This document shows positions 9,620 through 48,157 of a DNA stretch of 64,000 nt, piece by piece. Each line of letters begins with the position of its first letter. The first letter of the stretch is position 1. Origin of the DNA: a virus; IMG/VR virus record IMGVR_UViG_3300028025_003977, positions 28,956 through 92,955 of that record; one strand, 5' to 3'. The notes beneath the pieces were generated by a model. That model saw only the letters and a list, made by a program, of their open reading frames with translations, was not told the DNA's origin and did not search any database. The translations under genes and the position numbers were made by a program.

Positions 9620-12600
9620 ATGGCTAAAAAGGTAATGCAGGAAACGTATTATACTTTCATACCTTCTGAGGATAAAATTATTCTCCCAAGAGTAATTCAG
9701 AGAGAAAGCCTAATGTTGATTACAAACGTAACAACAAATCAGGTAATTTATAATTTTTCAGACCCAGACTTAAATGCCACATCTTACACCGTTGCTGGAT
9801 CAGCATCTTCCTCAACAACAACAATTGTATTAAATTACAACTGTAATGAAATGGACTCTAAAGACAAGCTTCAAATTGTTTATGAAGAGTACGATGAAAA
9901 AATTACACCGTCAGACCTTCTAGTTGATGCTGTTGGTAAAATGCGTGTTGCAAACCCACAGTCCTTAATTGACACAGATTTTGAATACGGAACACAACCT
10001 TCTAAATGGGAAACTGTTTCGTTGGTAGCCAACTACCCATCTTTCTTTTCAAAAGGCACTGGCGGAAACTCTTTAGCTGTAGCAGATATTGTTGGAGACG
10101 GAACCACAACTGCAAGAAAATCAAGAGTATATGTATTGACCGAATCAGATCATGGTCTTGTTTCAAATAGTGTTGTTAGTATTCAAGAAACAACAAATGA
10201 TGCAGCCGAAGGAACGTTTATTGTAACAAAGCCAGCTGCACCGTCAATTACAGGTGTATCTTCTGGTGTGTTTACCGCAAATGCTCATGGACTTTCAGCA
10301 AACCAACCAATTAGATTTAGTGCTGCAAGTACTTCTGGCGTATCAACAACTACCGTTTACTATGTTAAGACAGTTTTAGCTAATTCATTTATGGTAGCAA
10401 CTTCAATTGCAGGATCTGCAATTACAACGTTTACTAATGGAACCCCAACAGTTGATGTAAACAAAATGTTTACATATCTTGCAAATGGTCGTGTTGGAAA
10501 TGATTCAATTAAAGACAGCAACCTTACTAGCATTTATGGTGGAGACTTATTTGATGGAGCAAATGTTCCAGGATCTTCTTCCTTTACGGTTGAAGTTGCA
10601 GGATCCGTTGCAACCGTAACAACTCCAAATCCCCATGGATTAATTCCTGGAACTCCATTCCTTATTAATGGTGCAACTACTAACACATTTTTAAACGGAT
10701 CTTGGGTAGTATCTGCTACACCAACTCCAAAAATCTTTAACTTTACTGTAACTGGAGACAATGTAGTAAACATTTCTCCAGCAGCAACAGTTTCTGGATC
10801 AAAACTTTATTGTAAGCCAGATGCTTATGTTCAACACACGGCATATAATGGTGGCGTACTTTTAGCAACTGGAAACAACGTTGTAAATGTTCAACAGGTA
10901 AGACAGTCTAGAAGAACATTTAGGTATCAATCAGGAAAAGCAATTCAGTTTTCTACAGGAACCAAACTGACCCCAAGCTACGATATTACTGAAATTTATT
11001 CAAATACAACTGTTGGAGATGCTACAATTGTTGTTAAAACTGTACAAGACCATGGTCTTCAAGAAAATGCTAGAGTAACCATTAGTGGTGTGCAAGTTGT
11101 TGGAACTGATGCAAACCCATACAATGGAAGCTTTTTAGTAACTGGCATTGTTGATGAAAATACTTTTAGCTTTGAAACTACAATTCCAACAGCAATTAGC
11201 ACTACAAACAGAAATCCAAGTGGAGACAACGCTCTTGTTACTGTAACAAATTGGGCAGGATCTTCAACAAGACTTGGTTTATTCAATGATCAAAACGGAA
11301 TGTACTTTGAATATGATGGTCAAAAGCTGTTTGCTTGTAGAAGATTTTCTAATAAACCAATTTTTGGAACAGTATCTGTAACTAAAGACAGCTCTATTGT
11401 GACTGGAACTTCAACGCTATTTCTAAAGCAAATAGAGAAAAACCAAAACATTGTAATTAAAGGCATGACCTATAGAGTTGTAAATATTGATAGCGACACA
11501 ACCATGCATATTTCTCCAGCCTATAGAGGACAAACTGTTGGAGGGAATGTAAAGGTATACAAGGTCCAAGAAGTTAGAATTCCACAAAATGAATTTAACA
11601 TTGACAGACTAGATGGAACAGGACCTTCTGGATATATTATTGACCCAACAAAAATGCAGATGCTTTATATTGATTATTCTTGGTATGGTTCTGGATTTAT
11701 TCGCTATGGATTAAGAGCAACAAATGGAGATATTGTTTATTGTCATAGAATTCCAAATAACAATTTAAATAGTCAATCTTATATGCGTTCTGGAAACCTT
11801 CCTGCTAGATACGAAGTTTCTAACTTTGGTCCAACAACTGTTTTAGTCTCTTCTCCAGGAACTCCATTGGCACAAACAAGTAACCCAACAGCAGCAGATG
11901 TTCCTGGAACACCTTTAAATTCTAGTCAGACTGTAATGTATGTAAAAGATATTGAAGGCTGGAGAACTACTGCACCATCTGGAAACTCAACAGATATTAT
12001 TGGCTATCTTTTGATTAGTGATAAGACAAATACTGAAATTGTTTCTTACACAGCAGTTGGATCGTATAATGCTAAGGTTGGCGGATATCCAATTACAATT
12101 CAAAGAAGAGTAACTCAGTTTATTACTAGCCAAGGAAGTGTTGGGGTAGGATCGTTTAGAAACGGAACATATAGTTCTGGAGCCTATACAGATAGGATGA
12201 AGCTGTTTGCAGGAGCAAGTACAAACTTTAATACTGCTGGTATTCAGCAAGGAAATGTTATCTTTGCTGCAGATGGAACAAAACTTGGAAGAGTTGCAAC
12301 ATCTCTAGAGCTTGGTGGTGCTGCAAATCCTGCTGCAGATGGACAAAGCTTAACAATTTCAAGTGTGTTTAATGGAAAGACATGGGAAGTTCCAGACTCT
12401 CCAAATAAAGATTCAAACGGAACAAATGTTCCTTACGGATATACCTCTACGAATACAATTGCAACTGTTGGATACAGCATATCTTCAACAATTGCTTTGC
12501 AGGGAACTGCCAACACAGTATCGTTTAGCCCAGACTCATCTATTCAAAATGGAACTGGAACAGATGGTCAGGTTTCAGTTCAAGTAATTACACAAACCTG

Positions 12601-13258
12601 TGCTCCTTCTCTAAGCCACTGGGGATCTTCCGTAATCATGGACGGAACATTTGACGAAGATAAAGCTTTCCAGCTTAATGCTAGAATGAGAGGTGCAGGA
12701 CTTTCAGTTGCTGCAGGTGCATCAAATGCCTTACTAAGTATTAGAATAGCACCATCTGTTGATAATGGAATTGCTAGAAACTTTGGCAAGAGAGACGTTA
12801 TTAATACAATGCAATTAATTTTAAGAGAAATTCAAACATCTGCAAATGGTAGATTCCTTATAGAAGGGTTTTTAAATCCATCTACAATTAGTGATTCTGG
12901 ATGGAGTTCAGCAAATGGATCATCAACACTAACATATCCAGATAGCTGGGAATATACTTCTGTAGGCTCTGGATCTTTAGCTCAAGTTTTGTATCATGGA
13001 ACAGCAGCAACTATTACTGGAGGAGACAACATATTCTCTTTCTACACAGAAAATTCAGGAAGTGGATATGGAATTTCTACATATAACCTTGGTTCAACAC
13101 GAGAGCTTGGAACATCTATTCTTAGTGGAAATGGAAGTATTTCAACTCCAGGATTCCCTAATGGTCCAGATGTTTTAACAATTGTTGCAACAAACCTAGA
13201 AACATCTGGTTCCAAGTTTATTAATGCAAAGATTACATGGACTGAATCCCAGGCATAA
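9620..13258 (+). CDS. Large fibre-associated structural protein, cassette 1 paralogue
   Basis: 1212 residues. It is clearly homologous to the 978-residue protein at 41100-44036: both start MA-K/R-KV and share LITNVTTNQVIYNFSDP near residue 35, a DTDFEYGTQP-K-W-E block, RRYFRYQSGKGIQFSTG-like and SHWGSSVIMDG blocks, and APSVDNG near the end. This copy is longer, with extra Ig-like beta segments containing HGL motifs. It has an AGGTGGA ribosome site and lies 11 nt after the fibre gene. Probably a virion fibre or fibre-tip component; no enzyme motif seen. Confidence 0.65.
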   Translation: MAKKVMQETYYTFIPSEDKIILPRVIQRESLMLITNVTTNQVIYNFSDPDLNATSYTVAGSASSSTTTIVLNYNCNEMDSKDKLQIVYEEYDEKITPSDLLVDAVGKMRVANPQSLIDTDFEYGTQPSKWETVSLVANYPSFFSKGTGGNSLAVADIVGDGTTTARKSRVYVLTESDHGLVSNSVVSIQETTNDAAEGTFIVTKPAAPSITGVSSGVFTANAHGLSANQPIRFSAASTSGVSTTTVYYVKTVLANSFMVATSIAGSAITTFTNGTPTVDVNKMFTYLANGRVGNDSIKDSNLTSIYGGDLFDGANVPGSSSFTVEVAGSVATVTTPNPHGLIPGTPFLINGATTNTFLNGSWVVSATPTPKIFNFTVTGDNVVNISPAATVSGSKLYCKPDAYVQHTAYNGGVLLATGNNVVNVQQVRQSRRTFRYQSGKAIQFSTGTKLTPSYDITEIYSNTTVGDATIVVKTVQDHGLQENARVTISGVQVVGTDANPYNGSFLVTGIVDENTFSFETTIPTAISTTNRNPSGDNALVTVTNWAGSSTRLGLFNDQNGMYFEYDGQKLFACRRFSNKPIFGTVSVTKDSSIVTGTSTLFLKQIEKNQNIVIKGMTYRVVNIDSDTTMHISPAYRGQTVGGNVKVYKVQEVRIPQNEFNIDRLDGTGPSGYIIDPTKMQMLYIDYSWYGSGFIRYGLRATNGDIVYCHRIPNNNLNSQSYMRSGNLPARYEVSNFGPTTVLVSSPGTPLAQTSNPTAADVPGTPLNSSQTVMYVKDIEGWRTTAPSGNSTDIIGYLLISDKTNTEIVSYTAVGSYNAKVGGYPITIQRRVTQFITSQGSVGVGSFRNGTYSSGAYTDRMKLFAGASTNFNTAGIQQGNVIFAADGTKLGRVATSLELGGAANPAADGQSLTISSVFNGKTWEVPDSPNKDSNGTNVPYGYTSTNTIATVGYSISSTIALQGTANTVSFSPDSSIQNGTGTDGQVSVQVITQTCAPSLSHWGSSVIMDGTFDEDKAFQLNARMRGAGLSVAAGASNALLSIRIAPSVDNGIARNFGKRDVINTMQLILREIQTSANGRFLIEGFLNPSTISDSGWSSANGSSTLTYPDSWEYTSVGSGSLAQVLYHGTAATITGGDNIFSFYTENSGSGYGISTYNLGSTRELGTSILSGNGSISTPGFPNGPDVLTIVATNLETSGSKFINAKITWTESQA

Positions 13259-33947: not shown

Positions 33948-34682
33948 ATGGATTTAGAAAAAACAATTGAGCTAAGATACTTTGATAAAGAAAACAAACT
34001 TTTCAAAGTAGTAAATCCAAAAGTAAAAAGAACCTGGATGGACGATACACAAAATAATGCTTACCGATGTACTCCATTAAATGTTGCAAACACTTATGGA
34101 TGGTATGTCTTATGCCCAATGGACTTTACAGCAGAATGGAATGGTGGACCGCTAGAGTCAGATCTTGTTGTAACAATTATTAACCCTCCAGAAAGTGACA
34201 AAGAAGATTCACATAGAATCACTGCTACTAATTTTGGTCATGGAATACTAAGTCTAGTTCCAGATTTTATTATTAAAACAAGCCCAGGAGTTTCAACATA
34301 TGTTCGTGGGATTCCAAATTTAGTTGCAAATGGCATACAGCCACTTGATGGTGTTGTTGAAACAGATTGGCTGCCATTTACTTTCACTTATAACTTTAAG
34401 TTTATTAAACCAGGAAAAATTAAATTTGAAAAAGGTCAAGCACTTTTTAGTTTTTTTCCAGTAGAAAGAGGATATGTAGAACAATTTGATCCTTTAATTT
34501 CAAGTATTGAAGATTATCCAGAATTTAAAAAAGAATATGAAATGTATAGTAGCCATAGATCCATGCAACAAATGGGAGTTACTGAAATAGATGGTCACTA
34601 TGGAAGAGGAGAAACTCCCGCAAAAAAACATGAGGTCGATAATCATTTAAAAACAAGTAGGATAAAAGAATTTAAATATTAA
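33948..34682 (+). CDS. DUF6065-like protein
   Basis: 244 residues. Resembles DUF6065: WMDDTQNNAYRCTPLNVAN, then GWYVLCPMDFTAEWNGG and a Gly/Pro-rich later half with PGVSTYVRGIPN. Two proteins at 46319 and 47498 share the layout 'Pro-rich start, W, one Cys-Pro, an LTAGY/NTYGW turn, P-D/F', so they may be distant relatives. Family function unknown. Expressed from its own leaderless promoter, just before the tRNA genes. Confidence 0.65.
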   Translation: MDLEKTIELRYFDKENKLFKVVNPKVKRTWMDDTQNNAYRCTPLNVANTYGWYVLCPMDFTAEWNGGPLESDLVVTIINPPESDKEDSHRITATNFGHGILSLVPDFIIKTSPGVSTYVRGIPNLVANGIQPLDGVVETDWLPFTFTYNFKFIKPGKIKFEKGQALFSFFPVERGYVEQFDPLISSIEDYPEFKKEYEMYSSHRSMQQMGVTEIDGHYGRGETPAKKHEVDNHLKTSRIKEFKY

Positions 34683-36238: not shown

Positions 36239-36532
36239 ATGAATCTAGTAGAATTTATTGAAGAAGTTAAGTCAGGTCAGACCCTTGTGGATTTCTGGGC
36301 TGAATGGTGTGGACCATGCAAGATGCTAACACCTGTAATTGAAGAACTATCTAAAGAGCAGGATGTTCGTTTGCTAAAGATTAATGTTGATGAAAGTCCA
36401 GAGCTTGCACAAGCACTTGGCATCAATAGCATTCCAGTTATTATGCTATACAATAGTGGAGAAAAACTAAAGCATATTGTTGGTGCTAAGCCAAAGCCAG
36501 CACTAAAGAAAGCGTTGTTTGATAATGTTTAA
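36239..36532 (+). CDS. Thioredoxin
   Basis: 97 residues. Active site WCGPC (C24, C27), the VDFWAEWCGPC block and the cis-proline in NSIPVIML (P66). Reduces disulfides, possibly supporting nucleotide reduction or folding of Cys-rich virion proteins such as that at 44730. AGGAG precedes the ATG. Overlaps the next gene by 8 nt. Confidence 0.95.
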   Translation: MNLVEFIEEVKSGQTLVDFWAEWCGPCKMLTPVIEELSKEQDVRLLKINVDESPELAQALGINSIPVIMLYNSGEKLKHIVGAKPKPALKKALFDNV

Positions 36533-37100: not shown

Positions 37101-40100
37101 ATGGCATCCAAGAAATTTTTAAACCCTATAAACCTGCTAAATTTAGCATCTGACCCTGCCAGTGCCACCGAAGGTGATATTTATTTTAACACCACCGATG
37201 ATGTTGTAAAGGTATATGCCAATGGTGCTTGGGTAGCAGTTGGTGCCAATCCTACACAAGAAGATATTCAAGACCTTGTTGCCCCATTATTTACACACTC
37301 TAATCACATCAATGCTTCTGTAACTTATGAAGACGCATCTAATGAACTACATATCGATGTAATTAGTGCTCCATCTGCTGGATATACTGGCACAGTAAAA
37401 CATGATGTTAGATTAAACGGAAGCATTGCAACGGGTCAAGCAGTTTATGTAAGTTCTTCAAATGGAACAAATATGATTGTTTCAAAAGCCTCAAACGCAT
37501 CTGAAGCAACATCTAGCAAAACTCTTGGTCTTTTAGAGTCTGGTGGAACAAACAATGCATTAGTTAAAGTTGTAACAGAAGGTCTCTTGGCAGGTCTTAA
37601 TACATCCACCGCAGGTACAGAGGGTGATCCAGTATGGCTTGGCACCGATGGAAATTTAATTTATGGTCTTGCAAACAAACCTGTTCCTCCTGCACACTTA
37701 GTTTTTATTGGTATTGTTACCAGAAAAAATGAAAACAATGGTGAGATCTTTGTTAAAGTACAGAACGGCTTTGAGCTAAAAGAAATTCATGATGTACTTC
37801 TTGAAGCTAATGAGTCAATAGCAGATAATGAAATCCTCTCTTATGATAGTGCAAGTGGTCTTTGGAAAAATCAAACTCCAGCAGAAGCAGGGCTTCAAGT
37901 AATTGTTTCTGGCGTATCAGATACTGAAATCGGATATCTTGACGGAGTTACAAGTGCTATTCAAACACAGATAAACAATAAAGCATCTTTATCTGGTGCT
38001 ACATTTACTGGAGAAATTGAAGCCACTAAACTTAAGGCTACTGCAGCTGGTGGAGACGAGGGTGGAGAAATACTTCTTGGAAAACCATCCACAAATACAA
38101 CCCTTGCTGGCATAGGCGTTACTGTAGATGTTTACCAAAATAGACTTAGATTTTTTGAACAAGGTGGAGATGCTCGTGGATACTACATTGACATTACTAA
38201 TGGTGGATCAGCTGCGTCAACAAACCTAGTTAGTGCTGGTGGATCAAGCAATCTTGACGGTCTTACAGACGTAACAATTAGCGGAACCATAGCAGACAAT
38301 GAAGTTCTTGCATATGACACTGCAACTTCTCAGTGGATTAATCAAACTACAACAGAAGCAGGGCTTGCTAAAACCACAGACCTTGATTCATACCAGCCAC
38401 TAGATGCAGATTTATCAGCAATTGGTGCACTTACTGGAACTTCTGGACTTTTAAAAAAGGAATCAGCTAACAACTGGTCACTTGACACAAATACTTATAT
38501 TACATCATCTGCACTTAATGGTTATGCGTTACTAACTGATCCAGAGTTTCTTGGAACACCTCTTGCTCCAACCGTTACTGCTGGAGATAATAGTACAAAA
38601 ATTGCTACAACAGCGTTTGTTGCTACAAGTTTTGCTCCGATTAATGCACCAACATTTACTGGCACAGTAGTTCTTCCATCTACAACTTCCATAGGAGATG
38701 CATCCTCTACTGAAATTAGCTACTTGAATGGCGTGACTTCTTCAATCCAAACACAATTAAATAGCAAGCCTGACCTTACTTCTGGCGTTCTTAGCGAATC
38801 TGTAATCCCGATAGAAATTGCAAGAGTTAGCGATATGTCAAACTCTACAACTGGCTATGTTCCTATAAATACAAAAGGACAGCCTGACGGTGTAGCAACA
38901 CTTGATGGAAGTGGAAAAGTTCCAAGTACACAATTAGATCAATTCGTTGTTGCCTTTTTAGCAGGACCAACATTTACTGGTACAGTAATTCTTCCGTCAA
39001 CAACAAGTATTGGAACAGTTACTTCAACAGAAATTGGATACTTAGACGGAGTAACATCTGCACTTCAGACACAGATTGACAACAAGCTTTCAACATCATT
39101 AGCTGTATCAAACTACTTAAGTAAGGCAGATGCAATATCAGACTATCAGCCAAAAGATTTAGATCTTACAAATATTTCTGCATTGTCAACAACTGGAATT
39201 GTTGTTCGTGGAGTAGACTCAACATACACTACAGTAACTAATAATTCTTCTAATTGGGATACTGCATACACTGATAGAAATAAATGGGATGGTGGATCAA
39301 CAGGTCTCAATGCATCATCTGGAAGAACATCTTTAGGTCTTGTAATTGGAACAGATGTTCAAGCTTACAGTTCACATCTTGCAGGAATTAATACTCTTGG
39401 TTCTGGTACTGGTCTTTTAAAAAATACAGCAGGAACATGGTCTTACGACACAAGTACATATGCATTAGCATCTTCTTTGTCTGGCTACCAGCCACTTGAC
39501 GGAGACCTTACAGCAATCTCTGCAATTACTTCAGGTGTTGGATTATTAAAAAGACTTGGACCAGATACATGGTCTATTGATACAAGTTCTTATATAACTG
39601 GCTCTTCTCCAACAATTAGTACCTCTTTAATATCTGGAACAAGTACCTTTAATTTAATAAATGCTACTGCAACAACAGTAAATTTTGCAGGTGCTGCGAC
39701 AACATTAATAATTGGAGCAACAGATGCAGGGGCAACAACAACTATTAGAACCCCAACAATACTTACAACAAGCTCAAACCTAGATTTATTTAATACAACC
39801 GCAACCACTGTTAACTTTGCAGGTGCAGCAACAACATTTACAATTGGAGGAACTCCAACAGGATCTGTTACTGCAACTTTATTTGGAAATGCTACCACAA
39901 CAACAAAAACAATTAATATCGGAACTGGTGGAGCATCAGGTTCAGAAACAAATATTAATATTGGTTCTTCAACAAGTGGGGCAACTGGAACAGTTTCTGT
40001 TTACCCTTCTACAAATTTTGTTGGTTCAGTTTCTGTTCCGACACCAACATCCTCTAATCATGCAGCACCGAAAAGCTATGTTGATGCACTAGCAGCTGGT

Positions 40101-41096
40101 GTAGTAGTAAAAGCTCAAGTAGTCTATACTTCTTCTACTAATTTAAATGCAACCTATGCAAATGGAACTAGTGATTCTTCTGGTGGTCTTGGTGTTGGAG
40201 CAACCCTTACTGGAAACGTAGACGGAGCACTAATCCTTGATGGACCAGAAGTAGAAGCTGGTCAAAGAGTTCTTATTAAAAATCAAACCGATGCAAAGCA
40301 TAACGGTATATATGTTGTAACTTTTGCTGGAGATGGTGACGATCCATTTATTTTGACAAGAGCAACCGACTTTAATGGTAACTCTTCAACTAACGGTATA
40401 GTTAAAAACGCAAACTATGTTTTTGTTACCTCTGGAACCAACTCTGCAAATGACTCTTATGTAGTTTCTCTTGCAGGAACATCAACATCCCCAAGCGGTG
40501 CAATTAAATTTGGAACAGACAATGTTTCTTTTGCACAGTACTCTGGTGTACCAAATAACATCAGCACACTTGGATATGTTACAACAGGAACTTGGGCAGC
40601 AACCCCAATTGATAAAGACTTTATTGATGTTGAAATAGCCAGAACAAACGATCCAGTATTTACTGGTCATGTTACAGTTCCGTCCCCTACAGATGATACT
40701 GATGCAGCAAACAAAGAATATGTAGATGATTTAATTTTTGCCAGTTTGCCATACCTTCCAGACATTATTCCACTGGATGACTTGAGGTATGAGTTTAACG
40801 ACATAGATTCTAGATTTGTTCCAAAATTCCAAGGAGAACAGGTAGCAATTAATAACCCACTTAGACTTTTGTTAACAATAAATGGTATAATTCAAACAGT
40901 GGACTTTCCAGAATATGTCTGGCAATCTATGCTACCAAGAGAAGGCTTTATGGTAGACTCAGATGGCTACATTGCATTTTCTGAAGTACCACCAGCAGGA
41001 TCAACATTTGATGCCAGGTTAATGCTTGGACCAAACGTAAATTCAATAAAGAAAGGGTATCCATTCAAAGCGGTGGATATATTATTAGGAGCATAA
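37101..41096 (+). CDS. Large tail fibre protein, cassette 2
   Basis: 1331 residues. Three copies of a TEI-YL-GVTS-QTQ unit (near 37920, 38708 and 39026), each followed by a TFTG- segment, typical of phage fibre shafts. Three copies of a QPLD-DL-AI unit then 'GLLK...W--DT' follow. Near 39650-39930 are repeats of TATTVNFAGAATT. The last 110 residues match the C-terminal domain of the fibre at 5778-9608 (EYVWQS, YPFKAVDILLGA). Binds host receptors by inference. Next gene starts 3 nt later. Confidence 0.8.
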   Translation: MASKKFLNPINLLNLASDPASATEGDIYFNTTDDVVKVYANGAWVAVGANPTQEDIQDLVAPLFTHSNHINASVTYEDASNELHIDVISAPSAGYTGTVKHDVRLNGSIATGQAVYVSSSNGTNMIVSKASNASEATSSKTLGLLESGGTNNALVKVVTEGLLAGLNTSTAGTEGDPVWLGTDGNLIYGLANKPVPPAHLVFIGIVTRKNENNGEIFVKVQNGFELKEIHDVLLEANESIADNEILSYDSASGLWKNQTPAEAGLQVIVSGVSDTEIGYLDGVTSAIQTQINNKASLSGATFTGEIEATKLKATAAGGDEGGEILLGKPSTNTTLAGIGVTVDVYQNRLRFFEQGGDARGYYIDITNGGSAASTNLVSAGGSSNLDGLTDVTISGTIADNEVLAYDTATSQWINQTTTEAGLAKTTDLDSYQPLDADLSAIGALTGTSGLLKKESANNWSLDTNTYITSSALNGYALLTDPEFLGTPLAPTVTAGDNSTKIATTAFVATSFAPINAPTFTGTVVLPSTTSIGDASSTEISYLNGVTSSIQTQLNSKPDLTSGVLSESVIPIEIARVSDMSNSTTGYVPINTKGQPDGVATLDGSGKVPSTQLDQFVVAFLAGPTFTGTVILPSTTSIGTVTSTEIGYLDGVTSALQTQIDNKLSTSLAVSNYLSKADAISDYQPKDLDLTNISALSTTGIVVRGVDSTYTTVTNNSSNWDTAYTDRNKWDGGSTGLNASSGRTSLGLVIGTDVQAYSSHLAGINTLGSGTGLLKNTAGTWSYDTSTYALASSLSGYQPLDGDLTAISAITSGVGLLKRLGPDTWSIDTSSYITGSSPTISTSLISGTSTFNLINATATTVNFAGAATTLIIGATDAGATTTIRTPTILTTSSNLDLFNTTATTVNFAGAATTFTIGGTPTGSVTATLFGNATTTTKTINIGTGGASGSETNINIGSSTSGATGTVSVYPSTNFVGSVSVPTPTSSNHAAPKSYVDALAAGVVVKAQVVYTSSTNLNATYANGTSDSSGGLGVGATLTGNVDGALILDGPEVEAGQRVLIKNQTDAKHNGIYVVTFAGDGDDPFILTRATDFNGNSSTNGIVKNANYVFVTSGTNSANDSYVVSLAGTSTSPSGAIKFGTDNVSFAQYSGVPNNISTLGYVTTGTWAATPIDKDFIDVEIARTNDPVFTGHVTVPSPTDDTDAANKEYVDDLIFASLPYLPDIIPLDDLRYEFNDIDSRFVPKFQGEQVAINNPLRLLLTINGIIQTVDFPEYVWQSMLPREGFMVDSDGYIAFSEVPPAGSTFDARLMLGPNVNSIKKGYPFKAVDILLGA

Positions 41097-41099
41097 ACA

Positions 41100-44036
41100 A
41101 TGGCTAGAAAAGTACTTCACGAGACGAATTATACATTCACTCCGTCAACAAGAACGATTGTAATCCCAGATCACATTCCAAGGGAGAGACTGGTATTAAT
41201 TACAAACGTAACTACTAACCAGGTTATCTACAACTTCTCTGACCCTAGTCTTAAAGCAACAAGCTACACACCAGCCATTGATTCAAACAACGTAGCCACA
41301 ACTACTATTGTATTAAACTACAATACTGCAGCAATGTCTGCTACAGATAAACTTCAAATCACAGTTGATGAATATGCTGAAAGCTTCCAGCCAGATGAAG
41401 CCTATATGGATCCAGTTGGAAAATTTAGAGTTTCCAACCCTACCTCTTTGATTGATACCGATTTTGAATACGGAACTCAGCCTACTAAATGGGAAGTATT
41501 AAGTCTTACAAATAATAAGCCATCTTGTTTTTATGATATTCAAACTCCAATTGCTCAGCCTTCTGGAGGAACAAATACATTTGTTTCAATTACAGGAACT
41601 GGATCATCTAGACTGGTAACTGTAGTAACTACGGCAGCCCACGGTCTTTCTGTTGGGGATAAGTTCTTTATTCAAGATACACTAGACGTTAATGCAGATG
41701 GATGGTATTTAGTCAGAAGCGTTTCAACAACAACAGTTTCTAATGACACCTTTACATATTATGCAAGAGCAAATGTTGCTAACGGATCAGTTCGTGATGC
41801 AACAAAAACTTTTGCCTACAAAGCTTTTAACTACACAGGATCTGAAATTCCTATTTCAGTTAGCTCTGGTGCTGCATTTACGGCATCTAGCACCACAGTA
41901 ACAGCAACAACAACACATGCTCATGGTCTTAGTGTTGGAGATTTAATTTATGTTAATGGCACAACAGCTGCCTCTTCTAATCCACCAAATGGTGCATGGG
42001 AAGTAAAGACAACTCCAACAACAAACACATTCACTTTTGATGTTATTGATGCTCCATCTGGTGCAATTACAGCAACTGCAAAATCTTTAACTGGAAGACC
42101 AGGATCCCTTTCTGTTCACAGACCTTTTGACGGTGGAGTTAAGTTTACAACTGGATCTTCTGCCCCTGGTTCAAAGATCGTAAGACAGACAAGAAGATAC
42201 TTTAGATACCAGTCAGGTAAAGGCATTCAGTTCTCTACTGGATCTATGCTAAAGCCAGTATTTTCAGTTGATCTTATCACAAGTTCCAGTACAACAGTTA
42301 CCGTTAAAACTAGATACGAACATTTCCTTGGAATTGGTGCACAGGTTACAGTAACTGGTGCAGATCAAACAGCATACAATGGAACTTTTGTGGTTACGGC
42401 AATTACTGGACCTAAAGAATTCCAATACACCGCATCTTCAGTTCCTTCAGCAACTCCAGCAACTGGGTTCCCTATCACGGTAGCACCAGTCGCTTGGTTT
42501 GGTGGTCAGACAAGAGTAGGAATGTTTGATGAACAAAACGGATTCTTCTTTGAGTTTGATGGACAAACACTATGGGCAGTAAGACGCTCTAGTACAGATC
42601 AAATTTCTGGAATTGTTGCAACAACTCAAGGTTCTCCAACAATCACTGGTACAGATACTAGATTCTCAGAACAACTAAATCCAGGAGACAAGATTGCTAT
42701 TAGAGGTTTAACCTATACTGTTCAATCAATCACAAGTAATACAGAATTGTATGTGTTCCCAGAATATCGTGGTCAGTCAATTGCTTCTGGTGGAATTGTA
42801 AGCAAGGTGGTTGACTTTAAGGTTCCACAGTCCTCTTGGAATATTGATAAGTTAGATGGCACAGGACCTTCAGGAGTAAATGTAGATCTATCTAAAATGC
42901 AAATGTTCTATCTTGACTATGCATGGTATGGTGCAGGTGCAATTAGGTTTGGATTTAAAGACGAGCGTGGAGAAGTTGTATACTGTCACAGAATGACACA
43001 TGCAAATGTTAAGTCAGAGGCATACATGCGTTCTGGAAACCTTCCTGCCCGATACGAAGCAGCAGCAGATGCACCAGTTACAAAGCTTTCAGCATCACTT
43101 TCTGACTCTGCTACCAGTATGTCGGTTGCTAGTACTGTAGGATTTCCTTCAACTGGAACTCTGTCTATTACAAAGGCTGGAAATACTGCACAAGAAATTG
43201 AATATGTTTCTTACACAGGAAAAACAGCAACAACTTTTACTGGTTTGACCAGAGCTCTTACAAATGTAATTGTTAATCCAGTTACTGGTGCTACTGGTGG
43301 AGGTAATGCAACTGCTCAATCATTTACTTATTCAGCAACTGCTCCAGTAAGAGTTGACCTGTACTCTAGACAGTATGCAACTGGAACAAGTCACTGGGGA
43401 TCATCTGTAATTATGGATGGTGGATACGATGATGACAAGTCTTTCGTATTCCAAGCAGGTATGAAAACTGGTGTAGTTGTTCCAAGAAGCACAACATCAA
43501 GATCTGCTCTAATTAGTCTAAGACTTGCTCCATCGGTAGACAATGGAGTAGTTGGAGTCCTTGGAGAAAGAGAACTTGTTAATAGAATGCAGTTAAGACT
43601 AAGACAAATGGATGTTTTAACCTTAGTTGCAGGTTCTCTTGGAAACCCAGGAGCATTCCTTGTAGAACTTATATTAAATCCAAGATTTAATACTGCAACT
43701 GGAAATACTTGGGAAAATGTTGGTGGATCAAGCTTGTCTCAAGTTTGCTATCACGCAACAAATACAACCCTAATTGGTGGAGAGCCAATCTTCTCCTTCT
43801 TTGTATCTACTCAGTCTGGTGAAGCAAACGTTGTGCAACAAGATCTTGGTTTGGTTAGAGATTTAGGAAACTCAATTCTTGGTGGAGGAACAACAAATAC
43901 TGGTCAAACAACTGAGTTGAATATCTTCCCAGATGGACCAGACATTGTAACAATAGCAATCAGAAACCTTTCTGGTTCTGGTGTAACGAGTGCTACAGTT
44001 AACGGAAGGCTTTCTTGGACTGAAGCCCAAGCATAG
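41100..44036 (+). CDS. Large fibre-associated structural protein, cassette 2 paralogue
   Basis: 978 residues. Homologous throughout to the protein at 9620-13258: shared LITNVTTNQVIYNFSDP, DTDFEYGTQPTKWE, YFRYQSGKGIQFSTG, SGNLPARYE, SHWGSSVIMDG and APSVDNG blocks. The 9620 protein has extra beta domains. The DNA is well diverged, so the duplication is not recent. Likely a virion fibre component working with the neighbouring fibre. Confidence 0.7.
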   Translation: MARKVLHETNYTFTPSTRTIVIPDHIPRERLVLITNVTTNQVIYNFSDPSLKATSYTPAIDSNNVATTTIVLNYNTAAMSATDKLQITVDEYAESFQPDEAYMDPVGKFRVSNPTSLIDTDFEYGTQPTKWEVLSLTNNKPSCFYDIQTPIAQPSGGTNTFVSITGTGSSRLVTVVTTAAHGLSVGDKFFIQDTLDVNADGWYLVRSVSTTTVSNDTFTYYARANVANGSVRDATKTFAYKAFNYTGSEIPISVSSGAAFTASSTTVTATTTHAHGLSVGDLIYVNGTTAASSNPPNGAWEVKTTPTTNTFTFDVIDAPSGAITATAKSLTGRPGSLSVHRPFDGGVKFTTGSSAPGSKIVRQTRRYFRYQSGKGIQFSTGSMLKPVFSVDLITSSSTTVTVKTRYEHFLGIGAQVTVTGADQTAYNGTFVVTAITGPKEFQYTASSVPSATPATGFPITVAPVAWFGGQTRVGMFDEQNGFFFEFDGQTLWAVRRSSTDQISGIVATTQGSPTITGTDTRFSEQLNPGDKIAIRGLTYTVQSITSNTELYVFPEYRGQSIASGGIVSKVVDFKVPQSSWNIDKLDGTGPSGVNVDLSKMQMFYLDYAWYGAGAIRFGFKDERGEVVYCHRMTHANVKSEAYMRSGNLPARYEAAADAPVTKLSASLSDSATSMSVASTVGFPSTGTLSITKAGNTAQEIEYVSYTGKTATTFTGLTRALTNVIVNPVTGATGGGNATAQSFTYSATAPVRVDLYSRQYATGTSHWGSSVIMDGGYDDDKSFVFQAGMKTGVVVPRSTTSRSALISLRLAPSVDNGVVGVLGERELVNRMQLRLRQMDVLTLVAGSLGNPGAFLVELILNPRFNTATGNTWENVGGSSLSQVCYHATNTTLIGGEPIFSFFVSTQSGEANVVQQDLGLVRDLGNSILGGGTTNTGQTTELNIFPDGPDIVTIAIRNLSGSGVTSATVNGRLSWTEAQA

Positions 44037-44048
44037 TGGGAGGAAAAC

Positions 44049-44726
44049 GTGGGACTTAACAAACTAAACCACCTTTACTCTACTGAGCCATTGACAGTAG
44101 ATTCTTTACTAGCTAACAATGACGTAACCGTATTAGATGACGTTAATGTATTTGGAGAAACCCTTGTTGATGGATTGCTTGGGCAGCCAAACCAAGTACT
44201 TAAAGTCAATTCTGCTGGAACTACAATTGAATGGGCTACCCTAGATGCTCTTCCATCACAGTCTTCAAATGCAGGAAAATACCTAACAACTAATGGAACT
44301 ACTGCTTCATGGGCAACAATTACACTAAGTAACTATGCACTTTTAAATGCCCCATCTTTTACTGGAACAGTATATTCTGCTGGAAATGTTGTCTCACATA
44401 TTGATACAAATGCTCCAACTTTAAATTCTGGCAATTCCTATAAATATACGTTAGTTTTGGCAGATGACGGTAAGATGATTGAAATGAATACCTCTACTGG
44501 AGTAGGAAACACTCTTGAAATCCCCTTAAATTCATCCCACGCCTTTCCAATCGGTACTCAGATATCAGTACTTCAAACTGGTGCTGGACAAACAACTATC
44601 TCTGGAGCAGTTGGTGTGACCGTAAACGCTACTCCTGGAGCTAAACTAAGAGCACAATGGTCTGCTGCAAGCTTAGTAAAAAGAGCCACCAATACTTGGG
44701 CTTTAATTGGAGATTTGACGGCATAA
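44049..44726 (+). CDS. Fibre-associated protein, cassette 2
   Basis: 225 residues from GTG 44049, preceded by GGGAGGA. Contains NQVLKVNSAGTTIEWATL and NAGKYLTTNGTTASW, which resemble part of the 124-residue protein at 13268 in the other cassette. A C-terminal beta domain ends TWALIGDLTA. Probably a trimeric virion protein. Confidence 0.6.
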   Translation: MGLNKLNHLYSTEPLTVDSLLANNDVTVLDDVNVFGETLVDGLLGQPNQVLKVNSAGTTIEWATLDALPSQSSNAGKYLTTNGTTASWATITLSNYALLNAPSFTGTVYSAGNVVSHIDTNAPTLNSGNSYKYTLVLADDGKMIEMNTSTGVGNTLEIPLNSSHAFPIGTQISVLQTGAGQTTISGAVGVTVNATPGAKLRAQWSAASLVKRATNTWALIGDLTA

Positions 44727-44729
44727 ATT

Positions 44730-46016
44730 ATGTTTTTATTTAAAAATCTCTCAACAATTGCATCTTCTGTTCGTAATATGTTTACTGATAATTTTAACAG
44801 ACCTGATTCAGGAGAATTAGGAGATGCAACAGATCAGAGTAGATGGACAGCCCTTCGTGGAGTATTTACTATTTTTGAAAATAAAGCCAGAACAACTTCT
44901 GCAGCCAGTACATACCCAATTGCCTCTATTACAATGCCAGATTCTCCTCTTGATCAAGATGTAGTTATTTCATTAAAGGGAACAACTCCTGGAACTGGTG
45001 CAGCCCTTTGGATTACAGATAACAATAACTGGTGGGCTGTAACAACTGGTAAAGAAGTGGGAGAAAATTGTAACTGTGATACATGTTCTACATGTAATGC
45101 TGGAAATTGTAATGCTGGACCATGTACAACAAATGGAAACTGTATTGCTGGACCATGTAATGCTCAAGGAAATGCTTTTGGAAACTTTACTGCTGGAAAC
45201 GTAAACGCATTTACTGGAAACAATCAAAACGCAGCAAGTGGAGGAAACGTAAACGCATTTACTGGAAACAATGCTAGATATTTTTGTAATGCTTGGAACT
45301 TTGGAAACTGCAATACTACTAACTCAGCATGTTCACAGCTAGGTGAACCAGTTCAAACTGGTGGAGGAAACTGTAGAGTTTGGAGAAGCCCCATTCCAAG
45401 ATACTGTATTGGCTGGAACACTAGAAACTTTTCTCGTCCTTGTGTTGCATACAGTTGCGACACAGTAGGAAATAGATTTTGTAGGGCATCAAGCATTACA
45501 AGCTACAACGCAGCAACTGGTGGAGGAAATACAAATACATTTTTCCCTGCAACTTGGAATGCAGCAACTGGTGGAGGAAACTTTAATGGAAACACCTTTA
45601 CCGTAACTGGATGGAACTGTGCTGGAACTTTTTGCTCTGGAACCTATAACTGTGCAGCATATACATGTACTGCTTGGACATGCACAAATACTACATTTTC
45701 TAGTTGTAATTGTCAAACCTGCTTTCCAACATATGTTAGGGTTATAAAGTCTGTTGCAGGAACTGTTTCAGAATTAACTAGGTGGGTGGTTTCTACCCTT
45801 GGAACACAATTAGTTAACTCTATGAGAATTACTACTAGTGGATCTCAAATAACAATTGAGCCATATGCAAATGCGGATCTTACATCAAAAATTGGAAGTG
45901 ACCTAGTTTACACACCAACTGGTGTTGCACTTTCATCCAGCTATGGTATAATTGTAGAACCATCTCCTACAAGCCAAGGATTTGAAATTGATGAAATTAC
46001 AATTGAAAAAATTTAA
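44730..46016 (+). CDS. Structural protein with a cysteine/asparagine/glycine-rich insertion
   Basis: 428 residues. Residues 18-105 and about 332-428 look like two halves of one jelly-roll (concanavalin/LamG-like) domain: NFNRPDSGELG and LWITDNNNWW on one side, EPYANADLTSKIG and FEIDEITIEKI on the other. Between them, residues 114-331 hold 24 cysteines spaced in motifs such as CNCDTC and CNAGNC, with much Asn, Gly, Thr and Ala. Contains a 30-nt direct repeat. It closes the second fibre cassette and probably lies at a fibre tip. No related family recognised. Confidence 0.6.
   Translation: MFLFKNLSTIASSVRNMFTDNFNRPDSGELGDATDQSRWTALRGVFTIFENKARTTSAASTYPIASITMPDSPLDQDVVISLKGTTPGTGAALWITDNNNWWAVTTGKEVGENCNCDTCSTCNAGNCNAGPCTTNGNCIAGPCNAQGNAFGNFTAGNVNAFTGNNQNAASGGNVNAFTGNNARYFCNAWNFGNCNTTNSACSQLGEPVQTGGGNCRVWRSPIPRYCIGWNTRNFSRPCVAYSCDTVGNRFCRASSITSYNAATGGGNTNTFFPATWNAATGGGNFNGNTFTVTGWNCAGTFCSGTYNCAAYTCTAWTCTNTTFSSCNCQTCFPTYVRVIKSVAGTVSELTRWVVSTLGTQLVNSMRITTSGSQITIEPYANADLTSKIGSDLVYTPTGVALSSSYGIIVEPSPTSQGFEIDEITIEKI
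45195..45272 (+). repeat. Direct repeat, 30 nt, period 48
   Basis: A 30-nt stretch at 45195-45224 recurs identically at 45243-45272. It codes GNVNAFTGNN twice, inside the Cys-rich insertion. Likely an internal duplication in a repetitive protein region, not a mobile or CRISPR repeat. Confidence 0.85.
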
Positions 46017-46026
46017 AGGATAAAAT

Positions 46027-46305
46027 ATGAGTGACAAAAAAGAAAATACAGAAGACGTTCCTGAGCTTAGAGTTCCACCTAATCCAGGACCAGAAAGATT
46101 GCCATTTGATATAGCCATGGTAATTAACAATTGTGTTTATCAGGTTTTAAATGTTGATGGCGACCATGCAGCACAGCTTTTGTCTCAACCAACTTATATT
46201 AGGTTTAAAAACGAAGAAGCTAAGCTTGGATGGAAGTACGATCCAGAAACAAAAACATTTTCAAGACCGATTTACGATTCAGAAACTGATACGTTTCACT
46301 ACTAG
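46027..46305 (+). CDS. Small fibre-linked protein, module copy 1 (type A)
   Basis: 92 residues. IAMVINNCVYQVLNVDGDHAAQLLSQ and LGWKYDPETKTF correspond to the type A protein at 47008 (IAIVLDEEVQ, LFLSNPSF, VGWKYIDGRFF). Proteins of this outline lie among fibre genes in other phages; a fibre-assembly or virion role is likely. AAAGGA ribosome site before the ATG. Confidence 0.55.
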   Translation: MSDKKENTEDVPELRVPPNPGPERLPFDIAMVINNCVYQVLNVDGDHAAQLLSQPTYIRFKNEEAKLGWKYDPETKTFSRPIYDSETDTFHY

Positions 46306-46318
46306 AAAGCATTAAAAA

Positions 46319-47008
46319 ATGAAGCTTATACAATTTACATGTGAGGATAAAACATATCCATTAAACGTTCCTATTCCTGCAAAAAAAATGATCCCACAGT
46401 GGTATAAGGATGGAGAAACATACTACATTGACAAGCACAGTAATGATAGTGGTGCTGGGCTAAAAACATGCATACCATTTTTAGATGTTTTAACTGCTGG
46501 ATATCTTTTAGTTACCCCCTTTGACATATTTGTTGGTAAAAAAGAAGACGGTTCCTTGAGTATTGAATGGAACTCTCCAGATCCTTGGCAAAATTTTGTA
46601 AACCAAAGACCTTATGAGTCTGGAGCAACTATTCCAAGACCTTCAGGTCATCTAGATGCTCATTTTGTTTGGTCAAATAAATGGGGATGGAAAACTCCTA
46701 GAGGATATAGTACAATTGTTACACACCCATTCAACAGGTTTGATCTTCCCTTTACTACAATGTCTGGATTTATGGACACTGATAAGATTTCAGTAAATGG
46801 AAACGTTCCTTTCTTTTTAAAAGAAGGATTTTATGGAGTTATTCCAGAAGGAACTCCATATGCACAAATTATTCCAGTAAAAAGAAAGTTTTGGAAAATG
46901 ATTAATAACCCTGCAAACATTGATTTGGTATCAATGCAAAGTGTTAAGATACACTCAGAAAAAGCTTATTATAAGAAAAAAGCTTGGATAAGAAAAGAGT
47001 ATAACTAA
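46319..47008 (+). CDS. Conserved phage protein, module copy 1 (type B)
   Basis: 229 residues. NVPIPAKKMIPQWYKDG, KTCIPFLDVLTAGYLLVTPFD, then PYESGATIP, FVWSNKWGWKTPRGYS and TMSGFMDTDKISVNGNVPFF. Closely resembles the protein at 47498 and, more distantly, the DUF6065-like protein at 33948. Function unknown. A 1-nt overlap couples it to the second module copy. Confidence 0.6.
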   Translation: MKLIQFTCEDKTYPLNVPIPAKKMIPQWYKDGETYYIDKHSNDSGAGLKTCIPFLDVLTAGYLLVTPFDIFVGKKEDGSLSIEWNSPDPWQNFVNQRPYESGATIPRPSGHLDAHFVWSNKWGWKTPRGYSTIVTHPFNRFDLPFTTMSGFMDTDKISVNGNVPFFLKEGFYGVIPEGTPYAQIIPVKRKFWKMINNPANIDLVSMQSVKIHSEKAYYKKKAWIRKEYN

Positions 47009-47508
47009 TGTCTAAACATAAAAATGGAGTAATTGTCTTAAGCACATTGGACATTATTAAGGGTTGGTTTTCAAAAAGAAAAAGATTTGAAAACAAGCAA
47101 TCTCTTTTTTATAACATGATGCCTCCCGAGCCACTTGGAGAAAAAATAATTAGTATTGCTATTGTTTTGGATGAAGAGGTTCAAGAAATTATTAGAGCAC
47201 AGTCTGGGCTAGCCTCATTGTTTTTATCCAATCCTTCTTTTGTAGAAATTAGTAAAGAGTTAGATCCAGAAAGTAAGCCACAAGTTGGCTGGAAATATAT
47301 TGATGGAAGATTTTTTAAGAAGCATGTTCTTGTCAGGGAAAACGATGTTCTTTGGAGCGTTGATGGTGATCCTTGCGATGATCCAAACTGCGATCTTTGC
47401 CTTGGCGGTGGCAAATTAACAGCAACAATAAATGGAGAAAACACTCCAAGGCTTCCTGTTGTAAATAGAATAGAACCTAGTGAGGAAAAAGAAAAAAATG
47501 ACGAATAA
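47008..47508 (+). CDS. Small fibre-linked protein, module copy 2 (type A)
   Basis: 166 residues. Core related to the protein at 46027, with an added N-terminal basic segment and a C-terminal CDDPNCDLCLGGG Cys cluster that could bind zinc. It overlaps the type B gene that follows by 11 nt. Confidence 0.55.
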   Translation: MSKHKNGVIVLSTLDIIKGWFSKRKRFENKQSLFYNMMPPEPLGEKIISIAIVLDEEVQEIIRAQSGLASLFLSNPSFVEISKELDPESKPQVGWKYIDGRFFKKHVLVRENDVLWSVDGDPCDDPNCDLCLGGGKLTATINGENTPRLPVVNRIEPSEEKEKNDE

Positions 47509-48157
47509 TATTGTTTTTACCAGCACGTTTCCACAATATGATATCCCACATCCAATTCCAGCAAGTAGGGCTGTTCCAGAATGGTGGAGAAAAGAATCCA
47601 CCGTAGCTGATCAGATTCATACAATGAAAAAATGTGTTCCAATTTTAGATTCTCTTACAGCAGGTTATGTCATAACACTTCCTTCTGATGTACATAGAGC
47701 AAAGGGTATGGATAACTTTGGACAACGTTCAGATATATCTTTTGTTTCTCAGCATTATAAATTGCAAACTAAAGCCTATCCACTTTCAGAAGAATTTGAA
47801 GATCAACCATACAAGTGGATAAATCCTTGGAAAATTACAACTCCAAAAGGATATAGTTGCTTATTTATTCACCCATTGAATTCAGGGGATATGCCGTTTC
47901 ATTCTTTTTCTGGGGTAGTTGACACTGACAAGCATCCAGTTCCTGTAAACTTTCCATTTGTAGTTAAAAAAGATTTTGAAGGGGTTATCCTAGCAGGAAC
48001 TCCAATTATTCAAGTTATACCATTTAAAAGAGAGTCCTGGAAAAGTAAAGTAATAGATGATAAAGAGTTTATTGAGGACAAATCTTTTTATAAGATATTT
48101 AATCCCCCCTATGGTCAGTATAAAAGAAACTGGTGGAGTAAAAAGGAGTTTAGATAA
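47498..48157 (+). CDS. Conserved phage protein, module copy 2 (type B)
   Basis: About 219 residues from ATG 47498; an earlier start at 47480 is possible. IPASRAVPEWWRKES, KKCVPILDSLTAGYVITLPSD, KWINPWKITTPKGYS and SFSGVVDTDKHPV match the type B protein at 46319. Many aromatic residues and no membrane segment. Unknown activity; repeated presence suggests an important role around fibres. Confidence 0.6.
   Translation: MTNNIVFTSTFPQYDIPHPIPASRAVPEWWRKESTVADQIHTMKKCVPILDSLTAGYVITLPSDVHRAKGMDNFGQRSDISFVSQHYKLQTKAYPLSEEFEDQPYKWINPWKITTPKGYSCLFIHPLNSGDMPFHSFSGVVDTDKHPVPVNFPFVVKKDFEGVILAGTPIIQVIPFKRESWKSKVIDDKEFIEDKSFYKIFNPPYGQYKRNWWSKKEFR

Follow-up and report, generated by a model that had tools for sequence, protein, structure and literature searches.

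The gene described here belongs to a real protein family that has no entry in Pfam or NCBIfam and is carried by many uncultured phage contigs. Sequence statistics across this family show an even number of cysteines, one-to-one mirrored spacing of these cysteines, coupled changes in the two arms of a cysteine-rich insert, hypervariable loops that face each other, and exchange of inserts between diverged genes. The best reading of these patterns, which we consider likely, is that the insert is an antiparallel nested disulfide ladder mounted on a fiber-associated lectin domain and acts as a variable host-recognition spike. This reading is inferred from the sequence; the bonds themselves, the location in the virion, and the receptor role have not been shown.

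A cysteine-rich insert in a predicted lectin-like domain

The window (the whole stretch of DNA analyzed, 64,000 nucleotides) spans bases 28956-92955 of a 92,955-bp IMG/VR record. On its plus strand, the gene at 44730..46016 (stop codon included) encodes a 428-aa lectin-fold protein with 24 cysteines, all of which fall within residues 114-331 (positions 114, 116, 119, 122, 127, 132, 138, 143, 186, 194, 201, 215, 226, 238, 243, 251, 297, 302, 308, 313, 318, 326, 328, and 331), while the flanks, 210 residues in all, have none. Given a mean cysteine content of 0.57% in the other large open reading frames (ORFs) of the window, the probability of finding 24 or more in 428 aa is ∼2e-16. The insert is made up mainly of Asn (17%), Thr (14%), Gly (13%), Ala (11%), and Cys (11%). 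Among five relatives that are ∼70% identical, 24 of 24 cysteine columns are invariant and the intervening loops are highly variable, indicating that the reading frame is real and constrained.

When AlphaFold2 was given an alignment of 41 family members, residues 15-122 and 320-428 were modeled at a pLDDT of ∼90, with the bases of both arms of the insert predicted as strands; the insert remained below 50, and another member (L004) was modeled at a pLDDT of only 30. In Foldseek searches, the two halves matched jointly across the insert to the L-type lectin VIP36 (probability, 0.99) and to the central fiber of mycobacteriophage Douge (0.99), with many legume lectins and galectins among the further matches. 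The lectin matches are weak by E value (0.013 at best, above 0.001) and have a TM score of ∼0.45 by target because the insert, half of the query, is unmodeled. In the viral library, the best six matches were uncharacterized uncultured-phage proteins of the cysteine-ladder family (E values of 1e-38 to 4e-14); the weaker matches that came next include minor tail proteins of actinobacteriophages.

Since both halves are modeled confidently and align jointly to lectins across the insert, the cysteine-free flanks, residues 15-113 (plus strand, 44772..45068) and 332-428 (plus strand, 45723..46013), probably form one continuous L-type-lectin/concanavalin A-like jelly roll, as predicted by the model, that is split by the insert. 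The jelly roll aligns with VIP36, legume lectins, and Douge gp20 across both halves, but no such insert was seen in those proteins and the identity of the matches is only 5 to 15%. The fiber of Douge has domains with carbohydrate-binding folds, and these bind glycans of mycobacteria (PMC13033339).

A first-pass annotation, made without database searches, had placed 24 cysteines in residues 114-331 of the protein at 44730-46016 and had seen in the flanks two halves of one concanavalin-like domain. The coordinates and description of the cysteines are confirmed, and the split domain is supported by AlphaFold2 and by Foldseek, if with weak E values. A structure prediction lacking a continuous outer domain was to count as refutation; the prediction has such a domain, so this refutation did not materialize. 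The same annotation recognized no known family and proposed a search of metagenomic phage proteins for homologs. The former held for Pfam, PHROGs, NCBIfam, and PDB sequences, and the latter, described below, yielded relatives.

A family without a database entry

The query and the distant members that were tried had no relatives in Pfam, PHROGs, NCBIfam, or PDB sequences, except for weak PHROG matches for a few family members. Neither were relatives of these proteins found among isolate phages, plasmids, or GTDB genomes. The family was opened with a DNA pattern that encodes the exit motif of the insert, CNCQTC[YF]P; it matched 29 viral-contig stretches, 27 of them encoding members. Alignment-based scans then gave 74, 26, 17, and 80 (of 168) loci in overlapping sets. 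From the scanned loci, 92 distinct domains with both flanks were extracted, and these form 61 clusters at 80% identity.

Some members had already been deposited, unannotated, in UniProt as proteins of “uncultured Caudovirales phage” (A0A6J7WYT9 and five others); these are the six best viral-library matches given above, which extend over the whole protein. In the literature that we searched, no description of such a domain, or of these deposited proteins, was found.

Contig IMGVR_UViG_3300046787_000129 carries two paralogs (L149 and L155) that lie ∼5 kb apart and have near-identical rung patterns. In L160, the insert contains repeated CNC/CQTC pairs, around five per arm, as if the entry/exit motif had multiplied.

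The number of cysteines in the insert is even in every member analyzed

The insert has an even number of cysteines, ranging from 6 to 42, in all 92 distinct members; among control ORFs with six or more cysteines, 15 of 27 are even. Four domains were counted as odd at first, owing to an extra cysteine in a jelly-roll strand, outside the insert. One cluster (L221) was odd by the mechanical cut, and on inspection its extra cysteine occupies the position of Ser341, in the C-terminal half. The chance that all 61 clusters would be even is of the order of 1e-17. The flank tree requires at least 41 changes of cysteine number, and all of them lead from even to even.

The first-pass annotation had spoken of a “disulfide-laced or metal-loaded” fiber tip. 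In the metal version, the arms would be joined by Zn, Fe, or Cu ions that are coordinated either by the two cysteines of a rung or by clusters of cysteines. Metal-stabilized needles and fibers do exist in phages, and the CxCxxC pattern at both ends of the insert looks like a metal site. However, a grouping by four is not borne out, as the cysteine number is a multiple of four in only half (29) of the 58 members of an earlier set, and the gaps between cysteines hold Asn, Gly, Thr, and Tyr without conserved His or acidic partners. We do not favor metal loading and regard it as very unlikely. The disulfide-laced part of the claim is strongly supported by the even counts together with the mirrored spacing and the coupled gain and loss presented below, with the bonds themselves remaining an inference.

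Cysteine spacings in the two arms mirror each other

Each insert was cut at its cysteines, and segment i from the start was compared with segment i from the end; the null was obtained by shuffling one arm. In 55 representatives at 70% identity, the mirrored segment lengths agree with a Fisher P of 7e-31, which is indicative because the representatives are not fully independent. The mean absolute log ratio of mirrored lengths is 0.44 at register 0 versus 0.67 to 0.80 at shifts of 1 to 4, and it rises to 0.81, that is, to no agreement, when segments are paired in parallel. The mirror persists when the three conserved outer rungs are left out (P of 4e-16, again indicative given partly related representatives) and when only 12 to 32 more distant clusters are used (P of 4e-7 to 8e-11, likewise indicative).

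In the 428-aa query (P0001), the lengths between successive cysteines are 1 2 2 4 4 5 4 42 7 6 13 [10] 11 4 7 45 4 5 4 4 7 1 2, with the bracketed segment at the center of symmetry. By this analysis, arm 1 consists of residues 114-215 (plus strand, 45069..45374), begins with CNCDTC, and has 12 cysteines; arm 2 consists of residues 226-331 (plus strand, 45405..45722), ends with CNCQTC, and also has 12. Between them lies the inferred ladder tip, residues 216-225 (plus strand, 45375..45404), which corresponds to the place where the gene is split in one lineage (see below). Because the order is mirrored, we infer two antiparallel arms in contact; a direct duplication could yield a parallel order, not a mirrored one.

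The mirror is not perfect. Some members with vicinal CC pairs or few cysteines fit poorly (L088, L095, L199, L210, and L222), and strictly nested pairing is therefore not required of every cysteine. No rule for facing residues (aromatic versus non-aromatic, Trp versus Gly ends, or general complementarity across rungs) was significant family-wide. Facing GGN and NPYNP repeats were supported in L087 (P = 0.0006) and in L089 and L091 (P of ∼0.01), not in L086, L094, or L096.

Cysteines are gained and lost in pairs

Comparisons of individual members show that the two arms change together. Relative to L004, L041 has two extra cysteines, one per arm, at the same (mirrored) rung interval; relative to L090, L089 is short of a GGN unit (arm 1) and an NPYNP unit (arm 2); relative to L085, L064 has one unit fewer in each arm; and in L077 the first and last cysteines are both absent. 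As these changes involve a single cysteine in each arm, evenness is not a by-product of two-cysteine modules. A caution comes from L103: its two lost cysteines are not strictly opposite each other in the mirror.

Coupling extends to the segments between the cysteines. Long “bulge” units coincide across the arms (rungs 10 and 14 in L087, rung 6 in L089 to L092, and loops A and B in the query), and between L006 and L004 the repeat types SPSYP and YYYA are swapped between arms at facing rungs. Among close relatives, coupled length change peaks at the mirror register (0.85), with only nine pairs available.

A natural break in the insert is found in two contigs. At L049:4986-6007 and in the corresponding stretch of L050, a break at the inferred ladder tip divides the gene into two frames, each encoding a chain with 10 cysteines. 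Frame 1 ends shortly past its tenth cysteine, and frame 2, which encodes ten cysteines and the C-terminal half of the lectin domain, starts with an ATG ∼18 bases after the frame 1 stop, behind the Shine-Dalgarno-like agggaaagg. The segment lengths of the two chains (1,2,20,2,4,2,5,2,16 versus 2,1,23,1,6,1,7,1,11) keep the mirror (P = 0.002). Given their close relationship, these contigs are counted as a single split event. From sequence alone, we infer that this is a natural two-chain version of the protein.

These data bear on a rival explanation, in which the insert is a disulfide-rich knob, compact and globular, that sits on the lectin domain and has local or mixed connectivity, such as bonds inside one arm or between adjacent cysteines, with the mirrored spacing arising merely from a symmetric fold. 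Evenness by itself demands only pairing, and the poor mirror fit of CC-rich members and the loss in L103 can also be cited for a knob. However, single-cysteine units change once per arm (L041, L089/L090, and L064/L085), which under local pairing would leave an odd cysteine within an arm, and in the split member every mirrored cysteine pair lies on different chains. We thus consider the knob unlikely.

Facing loops are hypervariable and inserts are exchanged between diverged genes

Two long loops, loop A in arm 1 (residues 144-185; plus strand, 45159..45284) and loop B in arm 2 (residues 252-296; plus strand, 45483..45617), lie opposite each other in the ladder arrangement. In the five close relatives, the flanks are 86 to 89% identical versus a mean pairwise identity of 44% for loop A and 38% for loop B (over residues 256-296). 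The lengths of the two loops track each other among five relatives (A/B, 42/45, 48/51, 51/49, 51/49, and 47/47). Loop A contains two identical 30-nucleotide copies that are 48 nucleotides apart.

Divergence at synonymous sites separates the history of the insert from that of the flanks. For L010 and L039, dS is 0.41 in the flanks and 0.036 in the insert, and for L010 and L017 it is 0.115 in the flanks and 0.70 in the insert, which shows that in the L010 group inserts have been swapped independently of the flanks; that this happened by recombination between phages is our inference from the sequences. The dN/dS of the insert is ∼0.1 to 0.27, without any sign of positive selection, and exchange, not strong positive selection, is therefore the main sign.

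The low dN/dS and the lack of receptor data leave room for another interpretation, in which the ladder is armor or a length spacer that shields the fiber end or sets its position, and its variation is neutral drift of low-complexity repeats. Against this stand the contrast between conserved flanks and facing loops that are ∼40% identical and the exchange of inserts as modules between diverged genes, which together are the usual signature of host-range determinants, as well as the lectin fold at the base. Armor or a spacer thus appears improbable to us.

Diversification by a retroelement, with Asn codons marking adenine mutagenesis, can be all but ruled out as the source of the variation. In its favor, all 49 Asn codons of the protein are AAC or AAT, the insert is rich in AAY, and a Major tropism determinant N-terminal domain is encoded by genes upstream of the family gene in some relatives. 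However, no reverse transcriptase (PF00078) was found in the 92,955-bp record, which is possibly incomplete, and the variation includes whole repeat units at two places at once.

Model of the proposed disulfide ladder

In the nested ladder that we favor, the chain would leave the jelly roll at CNCDTC, extend as arm 1, turn at the tip (residues 216-225), and return as arm 2 to CNCQTC. Cysteine i would be bonded to cysteine (2n+1-i), so that every rung links the two arms; in the query, this predicts twelve bonds, from C114-C331 to C215-C226. Phage proteins are made in the reducing cytoplasm, which is a counterpoint to this reading, and we infer that the disulfides would form after release from it. 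The ladder may then be a rigid spike at the end of the fiber, with the tip and the paired loops binding the host surface, for which there are no binding data. The scaffold would be covalently locked while sequence and length vary freely.

A bolder version, toward which we lean only slightly, views the insert as a protein “stem-loop” zipped by 3 to 21 nested disulfides, in which rungs are added, lost, or swapped pairwise, like the base pairs of an RNA hairpin. It would be an evolvable recognition spike of uncultured phages (here actinobacteriophage-like) and would consist of two chains in one lineage.

Known systems resemble the putative ladder in part. The fiber-tip beta domain of Salmonella phage S16 gp38 carries loops on a fixed low-complexity scaffold, with hypervariable segments linked to host range (PMC6851490). 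The proposed working is alike, a fixed scaffold with variable segments, but the gp38 scaffold is a sandwich of hydrogen-bonded polyglycine-II helices, whereas the ladder protein has conserved cysteines in mirrored arms on a lectin-fold base. Membership of the query among S16-type gp38 adhesins was considered and rejected, since it has no Pfam, PHROG, or PDB sequence match and its longest Gly run is GGG. The bovine ultralong CDR H3 (stalk and knob) is a long, disulfide-rich, hypervariable insertion in a beta sandwich that projects to bind (PMC8602281, PMC5994613); it would work alike without homology, but it has few disulfides, located in the knob, and not a many-rung nested ladder. Nested disulfides between antiparallel arms are familiar from theta-defensins and twin-CxnC helical hairpins, which are small peptides. 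These have two or three rungs, whereas the phage family would have 3 to 21, variable in number and changing in pairs.

No description was found of such a long ladder changing in pairs, and the ladder would be the new element of this protein. A lectin-type outer domain and a part in host recognition, the latter presumed, both have precedents. Nor did we find here any family with dozens of cysteines paired in a nested and mirrored manner, with compensating changes in the arms. If the ladder reading is true, it would offer a rule for reading disulfide connectivity directly from sequence, a class of fiber-end variation that does not depend on retroelements, and a rugged scaffold on which loops can be exchanged.

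Genomic setting

The ladder gene closes a cassette of fiber and structural genes on the plus strand (37101..44726; proteins of 1331, 978, and 225 aa), among which the 978- and 225-aa proteins have PHROG tail/virion-structural matches, and this arrangement is repeated in relatives. In 83 of the 87 members with upstream DNA, the family gene is immediately preceded by a same-strand ORF of 150 aa or more. Most of the upstream ORFs examined are fiber-like (collagen repeats, an Mtd_N start, or PHROG tail-fiber matches). Thus, the earlier proposal that the gene closes a fiber cassette held, while placement at the fiber tip rests on gene position only. A thioredoxin, to which the first-pass annotation had pointed, is present at window positions ∼36248-36517, and its link to the cysteine-rich protein has no specific support. 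Thioredoxins are common in phages, and we draw nothing from this one.

The virus has a DnaE-like polymerase 56% identical to those of Streptomyces phages such as BillNye, and one of its minor tail proteins also resembles those of Streptomyces phages. Its host is therefore likely, although not shown, to be among the actinobacteria. The 978-aa virion protein, encoded two genes upstream of the ladder gene, resembles structural proteins of cyanophages.

Further proteins are encoded behind the cassette. Directly after the ladder gene, at 46027-46305, lies a gene for a 92-aa protein with weak likeness to PHROG 1604, which might conceivably be a fiber chaperone or cap; small proteins are also found behind other family members (L070 and L095). 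Proteins of ∼225 to 245 aa are encoded at 33948-34682, 46319-47008, and 47480-48157, two of them with PHROG 7084 matches. In most of the related loci examined, the family gene is followed by similar genes with the pattern MKxIxF...P.WW/Y, and this conserved place suggests a fiber-tied role, with the function not established.

The window also has two copies of a PHROG 5838 virion structural protein (9620-13258 and 41100-44036), a group that is otherwise typical of cyanophages and is found here beside an actinobacteriophage-like polymerase.
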